A stretch of DNA of 35,819 nt. Origin: Burkholderiaceae bacterium. GTDB lineage: Bacteria > Pseudomonadota > Gammaproteobacteria > Burkholderiales > Burkholderiaceae. The notes below the pieces were generated by a model. The model did not search any database and had not been told where the DNA came from. It saw nothing but the letters and a program-made list of their open reading frames with translations. Positions 5,503 through 26,566 of the stretch are shown here, in pieces; the stretch's first letter is position 1, and every line of letters begins with the position of its first letter. Position numbers and translations under genes: made by a program. The stretch lies in contig CANFUO010000014.1 of the NCBI GenBank assembly GCA_947450225.1, forward strand, positions 1-35,819, in the 5' to 3' direction.

Positions 5503-6227
5503 TTTGCCAGGGCTTCTTTTTGTAAGGCAACTAATTGACGAATCGAATCTTGACCTAAATCGAGAAGTTGAACAAGTTCCTCGCGAGAGAAGCTAGCACC
5601 CTCAGCAGTTCCTTGAATTTCTACAATACCGCCTTTACCTGTCATCACAATATTCATATCCGTATCACAGTTCGAGTCTTCATCATAGTCGAGGTCAGCG
5701 ACCGCAAGACCTTTAAAAATACCCACTGAAATTGCGGCAACGTGATCAATAATCGGGTCACTCTTGAGAGCGCCACTTTTGAGTAAAAGGTTTACAGCAT
5801 CACGAGCCGCCACGAAAGCACCCGTAATGGCAGCAGTTCTTGTCCCGCCATCGGCCTGAATCACATCACAGTCCAAGTGAATGGTACGCTCACCTAAAAG
5901 CTTGAGATCAAAAATACTGCGCAAAGACCTACCGATTAAACGTTGAATCTCTTGGGTTCTGCCGGATTGTTTACCCCGAGCAGCTTCACGATCGCTGCGG
6001 GTATGGGTGGATCTTGGTAGCATGCCATATTCAGCAGTTACCCAGCCTTGCCCACTCCCTTTTTGGTGGGGAGGGACTTTTTCTAAAATACTTGCATTGC
6101 AAAGGACTTGAGTTGAGCCAAAGCTAATAAGAACAGAGCCTTCAGCATGCTTCGTAAAATGACGGGCGATAGTTACATCTCGGATTTGTGATAATTTACG
6201 CTGACTTGGACGAATCGATGCATTCAT
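5499..6227 (-). CDS. rph: Ribonuclease PH
   Basis: Phosphorolytic 3'-5' exoribonuclease that trims the 3' ends of tRNA precursors. The 242-residue length is standard. Recognisable blocks are [10 protein letters not shown] (37-46), [17 protein letters not shown] (61-77), the RQ-contacting stretch around [16 protein letters not shown], and the phosphate-site region [14 protein letters not shown] (119-132). It is the first gene of the operon and is divergent from yicC. GAAAGGT lies about 10 bases before the ATG. The -35 region of its promoter probably overlaps that of yicC. Confidence 0.95.
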
Positions 6228-6305: not shown

Positions 6306-7250
6306 ATGATATATAGCATGACAGGCTTTGGGGCACATCGTCAGCCCTTACTCAATCAGCAGCAAACAGTGGCTTTAGTTTACGTGGAACTAAGGTCGAT
6401 TAATTCACGTTTTCTCGATTTAGTGTTTAGAACCCCTGATGAAGCCCGATTTGCTGAATCCCAAATCAGGGAGCAAATTGCCAAGCGCGTGAGTCGCGGA
6501 AAAATTGAATGTCGGATTCATATTCAGCGAGGCGCTGACATTGAACAAGCACAAGAGACAGACAAGCATCAAGACATCGCGCAAAATTTTCATGTGGGCG
6601 TATTAAGTGAGTTAAAGCATTTTGAGGCGTATATACAAGCGCAATTCCCGGGCGCGGCTGCCTTAAGTGTCAAAGATGTCTTAAGTTGGCCTGGCGTCAT
6701 TCGGCAAGAAGACATAGGTTCAGAAGCGCTGCAAGAAGCCATCTTGCAGGCACTGCATGTCGCCTTAGACGCACTCCTTGCTAGTCGCCAAAGTGAAGGT
6801 GATTTGATGCGGCAAGTCATCATGAAAAATCTTGAGGCGATGGCTGCTATTGTTGCTCACATTGAAGTTAAATTACCAGAAATTATTCAGGCCTATCAAG
6901 ATAAACTTACTGAAAAATTACTTTCAGTATTAAATGGTATTGATCAACAAGGACGAGTGGTTTCTAAAGAAGAGACAGTTGAACGGATCAAACAAGAAGT
7001 GGTGATGTATGGCGTTAGAATCGATGTGGCTGAGGAGATCAATCGTCTCAAGGCCCATTTTGATGCCGTTCGAAGTGCTCTCGCCAAAGGCGGACCCGTT
7101 GGTAAGCGACTCGATTTTTTAATGCAAGAATTACAAAGAGAAAGCAATACCTTGGGAGCGAAGTCAGTTTCACAGGAAACCAGCGACGCCTCCATGGAGC
7201 TAAAGTTACTCGTTGAGCAGATTCGTGAACAAGTGCAAAATTTAGAATAG
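6306..7250 (+). CDS. yicC: YicC family endoribonuclease
   Basis: A 314-residue YicC/YloC family protein. E. coli YicC has been described as an endoribonuclease acting on small RNAs. The family N-terminus MIYSMTGFG is intact, ELRSINSRFLDLVFR follows, and the C-terminal DUF1732 block contains EINRLKAHFDAVR, GKRLDFLMQELQRESNTLGAK and LKLLVEQIREQVQN. It is slightly longer than the usual 285-295 residues because of an insertion near residues 75-90. There is no Shine-Dalgarno sequence before ATG 6306; the promoter places the RNA start at the AUG. gmk follows 17 bases downstream, a common pairing. Confidence 0.92.
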   Translation: MIYSMTGFGAHRQPLLNQQQTVALVYVELRSINSRFLDLVFRTPDEARFAESQIREQIAKRVSRGKIECRIHIQRGADIEQAQETDKHQDIAQNFHVGVLSELKHFEAYIQAQFPGAAALSVKDVLSWPGVIRQEDIGSEALQEAILQALHVALDALLASRQSEGDLMRQVIMKNLEAMAAIVAHIEVKLPEIIQAYQDKLTEKLLSVLNGIDQQGRVVSKEETVERIKQEVVMYGVRIDVAEEINRLKAHFDAVRSALAKGGPVGKRLDFLMQELQRESNTLGAKSVSQETSDASMELKLLVEQIREQVQNLE

Positions 7251-10512: not shown

Positions 10513-10992
10513 CTACAGTGCTTTATATTCCACATCAATAATTTCTAGCATCTCGATGCCATTGGGAGTGTGTAACTCGATTTCATCGCCAATTTGTTTT
10601 TTGAGCATCGCTTTAGCAATCGGTGAAATCCAGCTTACATAATTATCACCTTGACTGATTTCATCAACACCAACGATACAAATCGTATGTTCACCAGTAC
10701 GATCGGCATAGGTCACTGTTGCCCCAAAAAAGATCTGTTCGGTACTTTCACGCGTTGCAGGATCGACAACCTCAGCAAACTCCAGGCGTTTATTTAAAAA
10801 GCGGATACGACGATCGATTTCACGCAACCTCTTTTTGCCATAAATATAATCACCATTCTCAGAACGATCACCATTACTAGCTGCCCAATGCACAATTTTG
10901 ACGATTTCTGGGCGTTCGATATCGAGCAGATGAAGTAGTTCATCCTTTATTCTTTGGTGTCCCGTAGGAGTAATATAGTTTTTTGAATTCAT
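10513..10992 (-). CDS. greB: Transcription elongation factor GreB
   Basis: Rescues backtracked RNA polymerase by stimulating transcript cleavage. The 159-residue protein has the GreA/GreB N-terminal coiled coil, with the acidic tip in SNGDRSENGDYIYGKKRLREIDRR and the GreB-like RIRFLNKRLEFAEVV. The C-terminal FKBP-like domain includes the conserved SPIAKAMLKKQIGDEI. No Shine-Dalgarno sequence precedes the ATG. On this strand TATTAT (11005-11000) lies 7 bases before the ATG, so this mRNA may also be leaderless. It is divergent from the tRNA-Arg gene. Confidence 0.94.
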   Translation of the reverse strand: MNSKNYITPTGHQRIKDELLHLLDIERPEIVKIVHWAASNGDRSENGDYIYGKKRLREIDRRIRFLNKRLEFAEVVDPATRESTEQIFFGATVTYADRTGEHTICIVGVDEISQGDNYVSWISPIAKAMLKKQIGDEIELHTPNGIEMLEIIDVEYKAL

Positions 10993-10997
10993 TTATG

Positions 10998-11011
10998 GCA
11001 TAATACTATGC
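10998..11011. promoter_or_regulatory. Shared greB / tRNA-Arg promoter region with short inverted repeat
   Basis: GCATA-N4-TATGC (10998-11011) contains CATAAT/TACTAT on the plus strand, just before the tRNA, and TATTAT on the minus strand, just before greB. The -35 elements on both sides are weak, so positions are approximate. Confidence 0.35.
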
Positions 11012-11014
11012 TAC

Positions 11015-11091
11015 GCGGCTGTAGCTCAGCTGGATAGAGTACTTGGCTACGAACCAAGGGGTCGTGGGTTCAATTCCTGCCAGCCGCACCA
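11015..11091 (+). tRNA. tRNA-Arg (anticodon ACG)
   Basis: A 77-base cloverleaf. The acceptor stem is GCGGCTG (11015-11021) with CAGCCGC (11081-11087), followed by discriminator A and an encoded CCA (11089-11091). The anticodon arm is CTTGG-CTACGAA-CCAAG, giving anticodon ACG, which becomes ICG and reads CGU/CGC/CGA. The T arm (11064-11080) has the expected TTCAATT loop and two wobble pairs in its stem. tRNA 3' ends are common integration sites, but I found no repeated copy of this 3' end downstream. Confidence 0.97.
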
Positions 11092-11111
11092 ACAATATGC
11101 ATCAGAATCAC

Positions 11112-11145
11112 GGGGTTACAGTGAAAATTGTAACCCCATTTTTTT
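11112..11145 (+). terminator. Rho-independent terminator after tRNA-Arg
   Basis: A perfect 9-bp stem, GGGGTTACA (11112-11120) with TGTAACCCC (11129-11137), has an 8-base loop, then A and seven T residues. It lies 20 bases past the CCA end. Confidence 0.93.
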
Positions 11146-11262
11146 ACCTTTTAGTTATTGAAATCACTTCTAATCTTCCCTTGGTAAAAACTACAGGCCT
11201 TTTTTAAAGAGGTGAATATAAAGATTTATTTATTTCAAACGATCATAAACATCAGTTAAGAA

Positions 11263-11781
11263 ATGAGCACTTTCCCTAATAAAAAATTTCGAGGTCACGT
11301 TTATAGCTTTGAACATCTGGAACACACATCTATCGAGATCTTATTTAATAACGGGGCAATAAAAGTTAAAATCTTCGTTACCTTTGGGTCCCACTGTTTT
11401 ACAGAGGAATTTAAGCCCGATACTCATAATCAAGAGTATGTATATAGACATAATGGTGAACTAAGGGCATTTGATATCGTTCGATATGAATGTTCAAAAA
11501 AATTACCCAACATTATTAATAATATGGCTAATGGGACAGTATATAAGTCTGATAAAAGTTATACATATGTTTCTCATATACAAATAGCCTCATTATTAGG
11601 AGAACAAGCATATTCGATATTTTTTAGCTTAAAAAAAAGAAATACTATTAATTCTGAATTGAGCGAGATTCATCTAGACATGTATATAAAAAGTGCTTAC
11701 CCCTGTTCATTGAAATCAAAAAAAAATGCCCAAAATTGGCGGTTTAAGGGGCTTGTTCGTCAAGTGGTCGGTGCTTTCTAA
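11263..11781 (+). CDS. Uncharacterised 172-residue protein downstream of tRNA-Arg
   Basis: No function can be assigned. The protein is soluble, with no signal peptide or membrane segment. Central blocks are VTFGSHCFTEEF (about 46-57) and FDIVRYECSKKLPNII, and the second half has YSIFFSLKK and DMYIKSAYP. From memory these resemble a widespread hypothetical family with a central VTFSxHCFT motif and a late SAY motif. The usual end of that family looks shortened or diverged here. The coding sequence is distinctly AT-rich, with a run of eight A's at 11631-11638, unlike the neighbouring core genes. TATAAA at 11217-11222 could be its -10 box. Position just after a tRNA and the composition suggest horizontal gain, but no integrase is present. 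Confidence 0.7.
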   Translation: MSTFPNKKFRGHVYSFEHLEHTSIEILFNNGAIKVKIFVTFGSHCFTEEFKPDTHNQEYVYRHNGELRAFDIVRYECSKKLPNIINNMANGTVYKSDKSYTYVSHIQIASLLGEQAYSIFFSLKKRNTINSELSEIHLDMYIKSAYPCSLKSKKNAQNWRFKGLVRQVVGAF

Positions 11782-11801
11782 GGGTGTTGATTTGAGAGAA
11801 G

Positions 11802-11829
11802 TTGACTTGGTAAAATTTTGGTGTACAAT
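11802..11829 (+). promoter_or_regulatory. Sigma-70 promoter of candidate small RNA
   Basis: TTGACT (11802-11807) and TACAAT (11824-11829) are 16 bases apart, among the best promoter matches in the window. The predicted RNA start is near 11836. No ribosome-binding site or plausible reading frame lies between it and the terminator at 11945-11970. Confidence 0.75.
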
Positions 11830-11835
11830 AGAAAC

Positions 11836-11970
11836 AGACAGTTCGAGAGCGAGTGAGTAAACGAACTAGCTGCCTAGAAATAGGTCTTACACGCCAGTAG
11901 GGGTAACAGAATCTCGCAGCGAAACCTCTCATGTGGTTTCAAGTAAAGGGCCTTAGGGCCCTTTTTCTTT
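11836..11970 (+). ncRNA. Candidate structured small RNA, about 135 nt
   Basis: The stretch is framed by a good promoter and a strong terminator and folds into successive hairpins. Stem 1 is AGTTCG (11840-11845) with CGAACT (11862-11867). Stem 2 is GCCTA (11872-11876) with TAGGT (11881-11885), capped by a GAAA tetraloop. Stem 3 is GAAACC (11921-11926) with GGTTTC (11935-11940). Stem 4 is the terminator. GCGAG in loop 1 (11849-11853) can also pair with CTCGC (11913-11917), which would make a long-range or pseudoknot contact. It lacks the signature sequences of tmRNA, 4.5S RNA and RNase P RNA. A 'Polynucleobacter-1' RNA motif with stable tetraloops has been published; whether this is a copy cannot be decided by eye. 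Confidence 0.65.
11945..11970 (+). terminator. Rho-independent terminator of candidate small RNA
   Basis: AAAGGGCC (11945-11952) pairs perfectly with GGCCCTTT (11957-11964) around a TTAG loop. The 3' arm runs into a T-rich tail (11962-11970, broken by one C). Confidence 0.9.
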
Positions 11971-12082
11971 ATCTGTGCACGAACAACCTAAATTTATGCA
12001 TATGGTTTGAATCGACTTTAGTGGCCACAAGAAAGCTGGAAACTCTTCTGATATTGGTTTTATCGAATGCATTTTTTATTTT

Positions 12083-12122
12083 TTTTAATGGATTGATTTT
12101 TAGGGGTTAATTTCCATTAAAA
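12083..12122. promoter_or_regulatory. Perfect 10-bp inverted repeat upstream of Bug receptor gene
   Basis: TTTTAATGGA (12083-12092) is repeated in inverted form as TCCATTAAAA (12113-12122), with a 20-base spacer. TTGATT at 12093-12098 lies inside and could be a -35 element. It is about 100 bases before the receptor start codon, so it may be an operator, or an mRNA hairpin if transcription starts upstream. The rest of the gap from the small-RNA terminator to 12224 is AT-rich and shows no gene. Confidence 0.45.
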
Positions 12123-12224
12123 GGTATCTTTGCTTTGGTTAGAGAAGAAGGCTTAGTCAATTTTCGTATATTCCATGGTTATAATTTCTTCATAAATAAT
12201 AAAAAATATACTCATGGGGGCAAC

Positions 12225-13199
12225 ATGATTAGAATTTCGTGGCGTTTTTTCCTGATTTTCATTGCAATTTTTCTGATTGCCATTTCAAATGCATCTGAAA
12301 TATATCCAAGCAGGACCATTAAATTAGTTGTGCCTTACCCTGCGGGTGGCGGTGCGGATTCTTTTTCTAGGCCCCTAGCGCAACAACTCTCTAATCGCCT
12401 CGGGCAGTCAGTCGTTGTTGAAAATCGAGGTGGTGCAGGAGGAAACATCAGTATGGAGTTCGTTGCAAGAGCCCCTAATGACGGCTATACCTTGATGTTG
12501 GCTTTAACCCCGCAATTAGCAATTAATGGAGCCTTATATGAAAAAATTCCTTTTGACCCAATTAAAAGCTTTACCCCTATTTCGTTAATTGCTGAAGGAC
12601 CCTATTTATTATTGGTTAACCCGACATTGCCTGTGAATAATCTAAAAGAGTTTTTGGCATTATCTAAGTCAGAGAGTGGTAAGTTAACGTATGCCTCTTC
12701 GGGAAGTGGAAGTGGTGGTCATATGGCAGCGGAATTGCTGATCAATATGACGAACATTCCCATGACGCATGTTCCTTATAAAGGAGGGGGACCAGCGATA
12801 TCGGATGTTTTAGGAGGGCATGTCAAAGTCATATTTGCCCCAGCAGTGAGTACGATTCAGTATATTCAAGCTGGGCGACTTCGTGCGATAGCGGTAACAG
12901 GTGAAAAGCGTTTGTCGAGTATCCCGCAAGTCCCAACGATGGCTGAGGCGGGAGTCCCTGGTTATGATTCAACCGTATGGTATGCCTTACTTGCACCGCC
13001 CAATACACCAAAAGAAATAGTGAACCGACTCAATGCCGAGTTATTGCAAATTTTAAAAGATTCCTCTTTCAAGGCGATGATGCACACCAATGGTATTGAG
13101 CCAATTGGCAGCACCCCAGAGGCATTAACTATGTATATTCAAAAGGAGATTATCAAATGGACCAAAGTCGTCAAGAGCGCGGGACTCAAAGCGGAATGA
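12225..13199 (+). CDS. Bug/TctC-family periplasmic substrate-binding receptor
   Basis: A secreted solute receptor of the Bug family, which binds small carboxylates and other organic ligands and normally feeds tripartite tricarboxylate transporters. Residues 1-24 form a signal peptide, with a hydrophobic core and probable cleavage after SNA. The mature protein shows family blocks IKLVVPYPAGGGADS, VVVENRGGAGGN and, later, HVPYKGGGPAISDVLGGHV. I start at 12225 (MIRIS...), since an upstream in-frame start at 12135 would bury the signal peptide 30 residues inside. GGGGG lies 4 bases before the ATG. No TctA/TctB genes are nearby. The stop overlaps the next start as ATGA, so translation of the two genes is coupled. 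Confidence 0.9.
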   Translation: MIRISWRFFLIFIAIFLIAISNASEIYPSRTIKLVVPYPAGGGADSFSRPLAQQLSNRLGQSVVVENRGGAGGNISMEFVARAPNDGYTLMLALTPQLAINGALYEKIPFDPIKSFTPISLIAEGPYLLLVNPTLPVNNLKEFLALSKSESGKLTYASSGSGSGGHMAAELLINMTNIPMTHVPYKGGGPAISDVLGGHVKVIFAPAVSTIQYIQAGRLRAIAVTGEKRLSSIPQVPTMAEAGVPGYDSTVWYALLAPPNTPKEIVNRLNAELLQILKDSSFKAMMHTNGIEPIGSTPEALTMYIQKEIIKWTKVVKSAGLKAE

Positions 13200-13951
13200 A
13201 TCCAATTGCACCTTGGTATCAATTAGGGTACATCATCCCACATCGTTACACTGATTTAGACGCCTATCAATTTTATCGGGTAGCACCAGAAGGAATGCTG
13301 TTGGTCACAACAGGGCTTAATTTAGCGGAGTACACCTTGGAGTCCGTTGAATCTCAAATGCCTGCGTTTTATTCTGCATTAGACCTATTAGCACACAAAC
13401 CTGTCGACAGAATTTCATTAAGTGGCGTTCCAGTAGCCGCCGCTTTAGGGCGTAAGCGAATGTTGGCACTATTAGAAGATGCCCGGTCTAGAACGGGATT
13501 GGAATGCGATACCGATGCAGAAGCACACATTGCGACGTTAAAACATTTAGGTGTCAGCAAAATTGCGATTGCATCGCGTTGGTCTGAAGCGGTGAATAAT
13601 GGCTTAATTGCCTATTTGGCAGATGCTGGTATTGAAGTATTGACTTGCAAATCACGCGGGCGAAACTTATCGCAGAATAAGTCAGCCAATCCATTGGCTG
13701 ACCATGAACTCGCGTTAGAACTCGGCAGAGAAGCATTAAGAGAAGCACCACAAGCACAAGCACTTTTAATGCCAGGAGGATTGTGGTTTGCAATCCACGC
13801 AGTTGCTACTTTGGAAGCTGAGTTTGGTAAACCTGTTCTTTTAAATATTTTAAGTACAACCTGCAGTGCTTTAAGGTCATATGCCCAAAATACAAATGTA
13901 ATACCTCGCAAAGCAGATCCAAAATGGGGTATGGTGTTAGCAAGCGTTTAA
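13196..13951 (+). CDS. Asp/Glu racemase / arylmalonate decarboxylase-like protein lacking catalytic cysteines
   Basis: A 251-residue protein resembling the maleate isomerase/arylmalonate decarboxylase branch of the Asp/Glu racemase superfamily. Matching features are an N-terminal GYIIPHRYTDLDAYQFYRVAP, the central DTDAEAHIATLKHLGVSKIAI, and ALLMPGGLWFAIHAVATLEAEFGKPVLLN split over 189-217. In active relatives the last block reads SCxxL with a catalytic Cys; here that position is Pro193. The first cysteine site, in SLSGVPVAAALG (74-85), also has no Cys. Cys104, Cys151 and Cys223 are elsewhere. Function is therefore uncertain: a different chemistry, ligand binding only, or a decayed enzyme. The frame is intact. 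The start at 13196 overlaps the receptor stop as ATGA; an ATG at 13157 would force a 43-base overlap. Confidence 0.8.
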   Translation: MNPIAPWYQLGYIIPHRYTDLDAYQFYRVAPEGMLLVTTGLNLAEYTLESVESQMPAFYSALDLLAHKPVDRISLSGVPVAAALGRKRMLALLEDARSRTGLECDTDAEAHIATLKHLGVSKIAIASRWSEAVNNGLIAYLADAGIEVLTCKSRGRNLSQNKSANPLADHELALELGREALREAPQAQALLMPGGLWFAIHAVATLEAEFGKPVLLNILSTTCSALRSYAQNTNVIPRKADPKWGMVLASV

Positions 13952-26291: not shown

Positions 26292-26484
26292 ATATCAGAA
26301 CTATCTGAATTATTTGTAGGAAATGTCTTTAAACGAGGTGTTTATCTGCAATAACAACAACTTGAAACAGAAAAACAGGCAATAAGAGAGCAAATGTCAT
26401 AAAATTGTCTGACAAACCTACTTATTATGTAGATAAGACTATTTATAAATGAGTTGGTTTGGGAAACGTTTTAGGAATTTCGCA

Positions 26485-26550
26485 ATCTACTAATCGGTTA
26501 GGCCGTGTCGTAGATGGTTGACTAACCCACTTACATATCGGGAAACCCGA
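26485..26550 (+). ncRNA. Structured leader RNA of sucA, probable pseudoknot (SucA RNA motif candidate)
   Basis: Two stems interlock: ATCTAC (26485-26490) with GTAGAT (26510-26515), and GGTTAG (26496-26501) with CTAACC (26522-26527), which gives an H-type pseudoknot. A third hairpin TCGGG-AAA-CCCGA (26538-26550) ends just before the Shine-Dalgarno AAAAGG (26553-26558). A conserved 'SucA' RNA motif in Burkholderiales sucA 5' UTRs is known from published comparative work, and this fits its position. The ligand is unknown. The rest of the gap from 26292 is AT-rich leader or promoter sequence with no gene. Confidence 0.65.
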
Positions 26551-26566
26551 AGAAAAGGTGAGCATT

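Follow-up and report, generated by a model that had tools for sequence, protein, structure and literature searches.

A rare and mobile structured small RNA common to phages, bacteria and a plasmid, with a YjaZ-like protein gene as a frequent neighbour

We find that positions 11835-11921 of the window, that is, of the whole 35,819-nucleotide stretch of Burkholderiaceae DNA analysed here, are, near certainly, the core of an independent structured small-RNA gene. The RNA is rare, patchy and mobile, common to phages and a plasmid, and is not a genus-wide conserved sRNA. It belongs to a family that has no model in Rfam 15; to call the family undescribed rests on Rfam 15 and on a limited literature search. 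As shown by association, a gene for a YjaZ-like protein is its neighbour throughout one protein group, either in tandem or in convergent orientation. The reading that we prefer, at a probability of roughly one in three, is that a trans-acting, protein-binding RNA would restrain the neighbouring protein in the manner of an antitoxin and would sometimes be carried alone. The features of the window on which the argument draws are the following.

11015..11091, + strand: upstream tRNA-Arg(ACG), close to one edge of the extra stretch described in the next line
11166..13847, no strand: stretch with the 172-aa ORF, the RNA and other genes, missing from genome G046, in which the equivalent of 11165 is joined directly to ~13848
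11263..11781, + strand: 172-aa YjaZ-like protein, candidate partner of the RNA; 47% identity to its Variovorax counterpart, NF007263 E = 8.5e-5
11802..11829, + strand: promoter from a sequence scan, -35 TTGACT at 11802-11807, 16-nt spacer, -10 TACAAT at 11824-11829
11835..11921, + strand: conserved RNA core, 87 nt, models R1/R2; five pairs of closer copies are 87-97% identical here and differ in their flanks
11840-11845 with 11862-11867, + strand: stem 1, AGTTCG/CGAACT, 16-nt loop, from the alignment; CTACG/CGTAG in L129
11849..11853, + strand: pseudoknot 5' strand GCGAG, inside the loop of stem 1; invariant in ten clear copies, GCGGG in L129
11873..11884, + strand: GNRA hairpin CCTA-GAAA-TAGG, GAAA tetraloop at 11877-11880; double-sided changes at 2 pairs
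11886-11890/11897-11901, + strand: third stem CTTAC/GTAGG (most relatives have CCTGC/GCAGG); 96% of cells pair, and one pair shows a double-sided change
11913..11917, + strand: pseudoknot 3' strand CTCGC; CCCGC in L129, compensatory to GCGGG
11921-11926/11935-11940, + strand: variable fourth hairpin GAAACC/GGTTTC, absent from the phage tRNA-array copy; in a set of 7 sequences 2 of its 6 pairs change on both sides
11945..11964, + strand: intrinsic terminator from a scan; equivalent stem and T-run in nine clear copies outside the tRNA array

Taken alone, the promoter, the terminator and the fold stability of the window RNA are weak evidence. Promoter-like sites in 11000-12300 number 4 against a shuffle mean of 5.0, terminator-like sites number 2 against 0.8 in shuffles, and the folding of the RNA region (z = -2.18) is equalled in stability by 5 of 200 shuffles. 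It is the comparison across copies that lifts the RNA far above chance. An earlier note, made from the letters of this DNA, had described a TTGACT-16-TACAAT promoter, four successive hairpins, a pairing of a GCGAG loop with a distal CTCGC, a strong terminator and a lack of coding potential. The promoter lies at 11802-11829, the hairpins are all in the sequence as stem 1, the GNRA hairpin, the third stem and the fourth hairpin, 11849-11853 is complementary to 11913-11917 with a compensatory change in a diverged copy, and the terminator is found at 11945-11964. Its 5-bp stem closed by a GAAA tetraloop needs amending, as the loop is there and the stem has 4 bp, or 5 bp only when an outer G-U is counted. 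As to coding potential, relatives carry 1-nt deletions and 2- or 4-nt insertions within the core, which would shift any reading frame, and the RNA is therefore noncoding.

How widely is this RNA distributed? Ten distinct clear copies were found (window, L063, L064, L065, L066, L067, L068, L079, L116 and L115), made up of the window, a Variovorax plasmid, four other bacterial copies and four phage lineages. Within the genus, 3 of 186 genomes carry it, namely the own genome (G000), G104 and G194, the last with two copies; some match at E <= 1 was reported in 48 of the 186, and all except these three have E >= 0.002 and are taken as chance. A single genome, the own one, was matched among 398 sampled from the family and again among 369 of the class, the latter with model R2. 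In the search of the order, covariance model R1 picked out 32 of 399 genomes at E <= 0.001, of which only G000 and G726 (78 bits) are clear. Re-searched with R2, the 28 weak loci fetched from it (L080-L107, with none for two weak genomes and for some second places) gave a best E of 0.31 and are treated as chance. A 196-nt DNA query against 101 genomes returned nothing beyond its own locus and 30 nt of G021 that match the terminator. The only match among plasmids (blastn, 196-base query) is a 2.48-Mb plasmid of Variovorax paradoxus, at 85% identity over 69% of the query, and blastn of a phage collection with the RNA gave no match. Five pattern scans of IMG/VR yielded five contigs with clear copies, L067, L068, L116, L113 and L115. 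The first three scans led to the same two phages, the two shorter ones to the same five clear contigs and to four without a clear copy; given this convergence, close relatives in IMG/VR are probably exhausted. L067 and L068 are related phages, L116 is the same contig as L110, and L113 and L115 are counted once, the 600-base stretch around the RNA being identical in the two. Scanning genome contigs with a pattern gave 9 stretches, of which two, both contigs of G194, hold clear copies. A strict structural descriptor missed both G194 copies and gave 3 hits in 84,890 shuffled bases; on 1.09 Mb of real sequence, both strands, from which 19 duplicate loci had been removed beforehand, it gave 10 hits without the GAGCGAG motif, the diverged copy L129 among them and two places listed twice. 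An Anaerococcus locus (L070, 1178-1250, - strand; 17.1 bits with R2, E 0.006) had been picked by a 17-letter pattern and is so probably a chance match.

The borders of the RNA can be read from copies in different surroundings. Five pairs of closer copies are 87-97% identical in the core and 41-57% identical in the 100 nt upstream and downstream, an uncalibrated level that we take as that of presumably unrelated flanks; L079, L116 and L115 are more diverged than these closer copies. In all ten copies tested, namely L129 and nine of the ten clear copies, with the tRNA-array copy left out, a -10-like hexamer (at least 5 of the 6 letters of TATAAT) ends 5-9 nt ahead of the core. Shuffled upstreams succeed in 0.75-10% of cases each, and the ten are not independent, since L067 and L068 are related, as are the two G194 copies. 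On contig L115, where 19 tRNAs were called, the core lies directly 3' of a tRNA-Val and has neither the usual fourth hairpin nor the terminator, and this bare core delimits the RNA to ~90 nt. Promoter-like and terminator sequences of its own accompany the core in the copies from bacteria and the plasmid and in three of the four phage lineages. The RNA in L115 is followed immediately by a tRNA-like element (6010-6069, + strand, with an equivalent in L113); it has a T-loop and an acceptor-like stem, GGGCGT/ACGTCC, and seems to lack a D-arm. This element is called by neither ARAGORN nor Rfam, and a tmRNA-like reading of the L115 3' end, which would build on its T-loop and acceptor-like stem, was rejected. 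In phage L067 the -35 box of the RNA promoter (6729-6734) overlaps the stop codon of the phage protein gene.

The fold is carried by changes on both sides of its stems. In the ten-row alignment A7, 98.6% of the pair cells are standard and 4 of 21 pairs have double-sided changes, two of these pairs being in the GNRA stem, one in the third stem and one the outer pair of stem 1. The covariation score was reached by 0 of 500 shuffles, a control that ignores relatedness, and when the partners were slid by 1-3 columns pairing fell to 31-42%, a test favoured by the structure having been read from these same sequences. The tetraloop is always GNRA, as GAAA, GTAA, GCAA or GCGA, and the pseudoknot does not vary across the ten clear copies. 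A diverged eleventh copy, L129, comes from a genome of the same family and another genus (G227) and reaches 20 bits under R2, with E 4e-5 when 17 kb were searched. This is little above the 17.1 of L070, and L129 rests on its place beside the protein gene, on the descriptor and on the compensated pseudoknot. It has CTACG/CGTAG in place of GTTCG/CGAAC in stem 1, a GNRA hairpin CCTGG-GAAA-CCAGG, an extra GCGA hairpin inserted ahead of the 3' pseudoknot strand, and GCGGG/CCCGC in place of GCGAG/CTCGC, a compensatory change; an energy model, from a program without pseudoknots, pairs its stem 1 region otherwise. The pseudoknot therefore has the support of a single compensatory change, seen in one lineage. 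These comparisons show a core in which a distal strand pairs with the stem 1 loop, forming a pseudoknot around the GNRA hairpin and a second hairpin. The loop letters GAGCGRGTG are kept in all eleven copies. The covariation of stems in relatives, which the earlier note had proposed to look for, is found both on A7 and in L129.

No model of Rfam 15 matches the RNA, whether the window is scanned at gathering score or 11700-12100 with E allowed up to 10, nor was such a family match obtained for the tRNA-array copy at E <= 10 or for L129, L079, L139, L116 and L066 at gathering score. Models of tmRNA, RNase P RNA, 6S RNA and 4.5S RNA are among those without a match, and the last three RNAs presumably have Rfam models; this agrees with the earlier note, which had excluded tmRNA, 4.5S RNA and RNase P RNA by signature. 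The same note had offered two identities, a copy of the Polynucleobacter-1 motif or a new sRNA, and had advised a scan with the Polynucleobacter-1 and 6S models. Neither model matches the window RNA, and RF01718 is unlisted both for the window at gathering score and for 11700-12100 at E up to 10, so that the first identity is rejected; a search of the whole genome with RF01718 gave no match either and carries little weight, as 14 control genomes were also silent. The second identity stands, in that no Rfam 15 model matches and the stems covary. Polynucleobacter-1 is entered in a motif table of PMC2864571 for Burkholderiales of fresh water or estuary; the RNA described here resembles it in its Burkholderiales setting and differs in that the RF01718 model has no match in it. 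Elsewhere in the window, 26480-26564 (+ strand) is a well-matched sucA RNA motif, a known family, at 72.9 bits.

Two known kinds of RNA come closest. GOLLD and ROOL, which we take to have Rfam models, are like the RNA described here in being structured noncoding RNAs of phages and prophages near tRNA islands. PMC12286853 describes them as often located near tRNA islands and of unknown function, with many GOLLD members above 800 nt and with both forming nanocages. They are far larger than the core reported here, which has ~90 nt, mostly has promoter-like and terminator-like sequences of its own and often has a protein neighbour. A tRNA-array setting as in GOLLD and ROOL is seen in 1 of 10 copies (L113/L115); the window copy lies near a single tRNA-Arg and the G104 copy near tmRNA. 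RNAs C and D of T4 (annotated as rnaC, 139 nt, and rnaD, 119 nt) are also small, stable noncoding RNAs within a phage tRNA cluster, with roles that are, to our knowledge, open. Model R2 found no match in the T4 tRNA cluster with rnaC and rnaD (L131) at E <= 10, nor in an E. coli rRNA operon. The other kind is the type III toxin-antitoxin system, of which TenpIN is a family beside ToxIN and CptIN. As described in PMC5086642, type III antitoxin RNAs are pseudoknotted and stand as tandem repeats upstream of the toxin gene, under one promoter and with a terminator between. The likeness is that of a noncoding RNA, pseudoknotted here as judged from sequence, beside a small protein gene. Unlike those antitoxins, the present RNA is a single unit, lies downstream of or convergent to the gene and has its own -10-like hexamer, and the protein has no Pfam or PADLOC match. 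The RNA thus extends two known kinds, the phage tRNA-array RNAs and the protein-RNA pairs, and is not categorically new.

The 172-aa protein is, as judged from profile scores, a distant relative of YjaZ outside the NF007263 equivalog. It scores 22.6 bits with NF007263 (YjaZ) against an equivalog cut-off of 324; the best YjaZ match, a Deinococcus relative, has E = 4e-17, and all matches are far below the 324-bit cut-off. Its identity to homologues is 47% for Variovorax, 53-54% for L067 and L068 and 45% for L110. Pfam and PADLOC gave no match for either the window or the Variovorax protein and PHROGs none that convinces, tblastn of the protein in a phage collection gave no match, and a PDB sequence search with it nothing relevant. 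NCBIfam and plasmid annotations of relatives read 'stationary phase growth adaptation protein' or 'heat-shock protein', not toxin. An AlphaFold2 model from 4 sequences is of moderate quality (pLDDT 67.8, pTM 0.65), and with it Foldseek found no match at E <= 0.001 in PDB or BFVD. VIA-align gave 19 entries at Z 2.0-3.4, every Z being below 5; five of them come from toxin or toxin-immunity/antitoxin complexes (7m5f, 9g12, 6cp8, 2kc8 and 5ja8). Compared with the BECR / RelE-like RNase toxin fold, the best Z is 3.4, with several toxin-complex entries and again every Z below 5, a weak hint from a predicted model that the protein may have a toxin-like fold. In L122 an HTH_36 helix-turn-helix gene directly precedes the protein gene, and this order of an HTH gene and then the protein gene is a common toxin-antitoxin layout; in L123 it comes after a RepL-annotated gene, and in L110 after an ORF whose matches, to regulators and replication proteins, all stay below threshold. 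Many relatives of the protein are found on small plasmids (about 4-5 kb) of Klebsiella and Enterobacter, for example L124, and no RNA of this family was recognised in the one fetched plasmid of this small Klebsiella/Enterobacter type.

A question remains, does the RNA travel with the protein gene? It adjoins the gene of ~170 aa in 5 of 5 close protein loci (window, L063, L067, L068 and L110), and a sixth firm adjacency is that of the diverged L129, which lies beside a distant relative of the protein. The RNA is just downstream and in tandem in the window, L063, L067 and L068, which were first met through the RNA, and convergent in L110 and L129. Approached from the protein, a scan of IMG/VR by protein alignment gave 3 loci, all 3 with the RNA and one of them new (L110), and a search of 300 genomes of the order gave two new loci, one of them (L129) with a diverged RNA. 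Altogether 16 protein loci were examined, with the RNA beside the 5 close ones and L129, probable in L138/L139 and recognised in none of 8; these 8, of 11 distant loci, are L122-L126, L128, L136 and L137, in which neither R2 nor the descriptor gave a recognisable RNA. The sample is small, 6 of 502 plasmid records having been fetched from one search and 4 of 29 from another. A protein relative is present in 502 plasmid records, and blastn of all plasmids with the RNA finds only Variovorax. On two nearly identical Agrobacterium plasmids (L138 and L139) a candidate RNA, at L138:3127-3043 (- strand), is convergent to the YjaZ-like gene. With R2, run on L138 only, it scores 12.7 bits at E 0.011 (3e-4 in a smaller search), and it has sequences that read as promoter-like and terminator-like. 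It is a probable alphaproteobacterial member of the RNA family, and is left out of the proven count since 11 of 1120 strands of shuffled flanks also yield a hit with the relaxed descriptor. The descriptor hit of Hydrogenophaga L137 has a long hairpin unlike the family, the protein there is a fragment, and the locus is not counted. By ORF lists, five of the ten clear copies have no such gene alongside (G104, G194 twice, G726 and L113/L115), and no match to the protein profile was found anywhere in the assemblies of G104, G194 and G726, that of G194 being 84% complete. Between the window and Variovorax the RNA is 87% identical and the protein 47%.

The stretch 11166-13847 is missing from G046, the closest of 61 genomes by GreB (88%), and a gain in the window is likelier than a loss in G046. 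The other genes of the stretch, named by reading their ORFs, are a Bug-type receptor and an isomerase-like gene. G+C is 0.32 for 11166-11781 and 0.30 for 11966-12200, and 0.44, like the flanks, for the two further genes. As only the left part of the extra stretch is AT-rich, the RNA and the ORF may have arrived separately from the rest. No direct repeats of at least 14 bases were found in 10900-13300, a range that stops short of the right end of the stretch. The G104 copy is convergent to tmRNA. L067 carries portal, scaffold, capsid and integrase genes, as read from its ORFs, and its RNA-protein pair sits between the scaffold-like and capsid-like genes. The two G194 copies (L064:1453-2607 and L065:7749-8357) have similar upstream sequence and adjoin a Fic-like ORF and a HicAB-like pair, genes of toxin type named by reading the ORFs.

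What might the RNA do? In the mechanism that we prefer, it would act in trans by its shape, not by antisense pairing, as suggested by the loop letters GAGCGRGTG being kept together with the fold in all eleven copies. Its main partner would be the neighbouring YjaZ-like protein, because six firm loci, with both orientations among them, have so rare an RNA next to this gene, and it would bind and restrain that protein as an antitoxin RNA does, by analogy with pseudoknotted antitoxins (PMC5086642) and with an antitoxin mimic that a phage carries alone (PMC3475682). Lone copies, namely that of the phage tRNA array and those of bacterial loci that lack the gene, might neutralise the same kind of protein arriving on a rival element; the model for this role is phage PhiTE, whose pseudo-ToxI RNA neutralises ToxN (PMC3475682). 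Restraint has against it the five copies that lack the gene, the eight distant genes beside which no RNA was detected, the plasmid count, the moderate fold model and the stress-protein annotations. The wider picture is rather unlikely, namely that of a new antagonistic pair in which a single ~90-nt pseudoknotted RNA with its own promoter, tandem or convergent, would control a YjaZ-like protein, possibly of RelE/CDI-toxin fold, on phages and plasmids from Burkholderiales probably to Alphaproteobacteria, with some phages keeping only the RNA, in a tRNA array, as an antidote.

The strongest rival is nearly as likely as the antitoxin-like mechanism. Here the RNA would be a phage RNA or host-directed structured RNA like GOLLD, ROOL or T4 RNAs C and D, of use to the phage while it infects and acting for instance on ribosomes or tRNAs or baiting a defence nuclease, and the protein gene would be fellow cargo. 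The bare core directly 3' of tRNA-Val in the L113/L115 array, lacking its usual terminator, fits such a role, as do the half of the clear copies that have no protein gene alongside and the far stronger conservation of the RNA than of the protein between window and Variovorax; yet adjacency in five close loci and L129, in both orientations, is hard to explain for a rare RNA without a functional link. This co-occurrence would also suit a small ribonucleoprotein, in which the RNA serves the YjaZ-like protein as a scaffold or activates it, for stress survival or for counter-defence, and no toxin-antitoxin pair is involved. Loop letters kept as well as the pairs in eleven copies, as expected of a protein-binding site, and relatives annotated as stress proteins point the same way, but RNA copies occur in assemblies without a match to the protein profile, and we hold this explanation to be distinctly improbable. 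An ordinary base-pairing sRNA carried on mobile elements is more improbable again: size, promoter and terminator are those of such an sRNA, and the variable 3' hairpin could hold a targeting sequence, whereas what is conserved is a folded core with no lone unpaired seed, and similar cores occur among unlike neighbours. That the RNA is merely the 3' UTR or terminator structure of the 172-aa ORF, as its place just downstream in the window, L063, L067 and L068 might suggest, is scarcely credible given the convergent order in L110 and L129, the five copies without the ORF and the -10-like hexamer in 10 of 10 copies tested.

The analysis adds an RNA family unmatched by Rfam 15, with a pseudoknot backed by a compensatory change and with a candidate protein partner that can be tested. 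Phage tRNA arrays hold structured RNAs of open role, such as GOLLD and ROOL, and a small RNA with a candidate partner makes the question of their role testable. If lone copies do act as antidotes, this would be an RNA-protein antagonism laid out unlike type III systems, and if RNA and protein form an antagonistic pair, the uncharacterised YjaZ of E. coli would belong to the same superfamily of RNA-controlled proteins.
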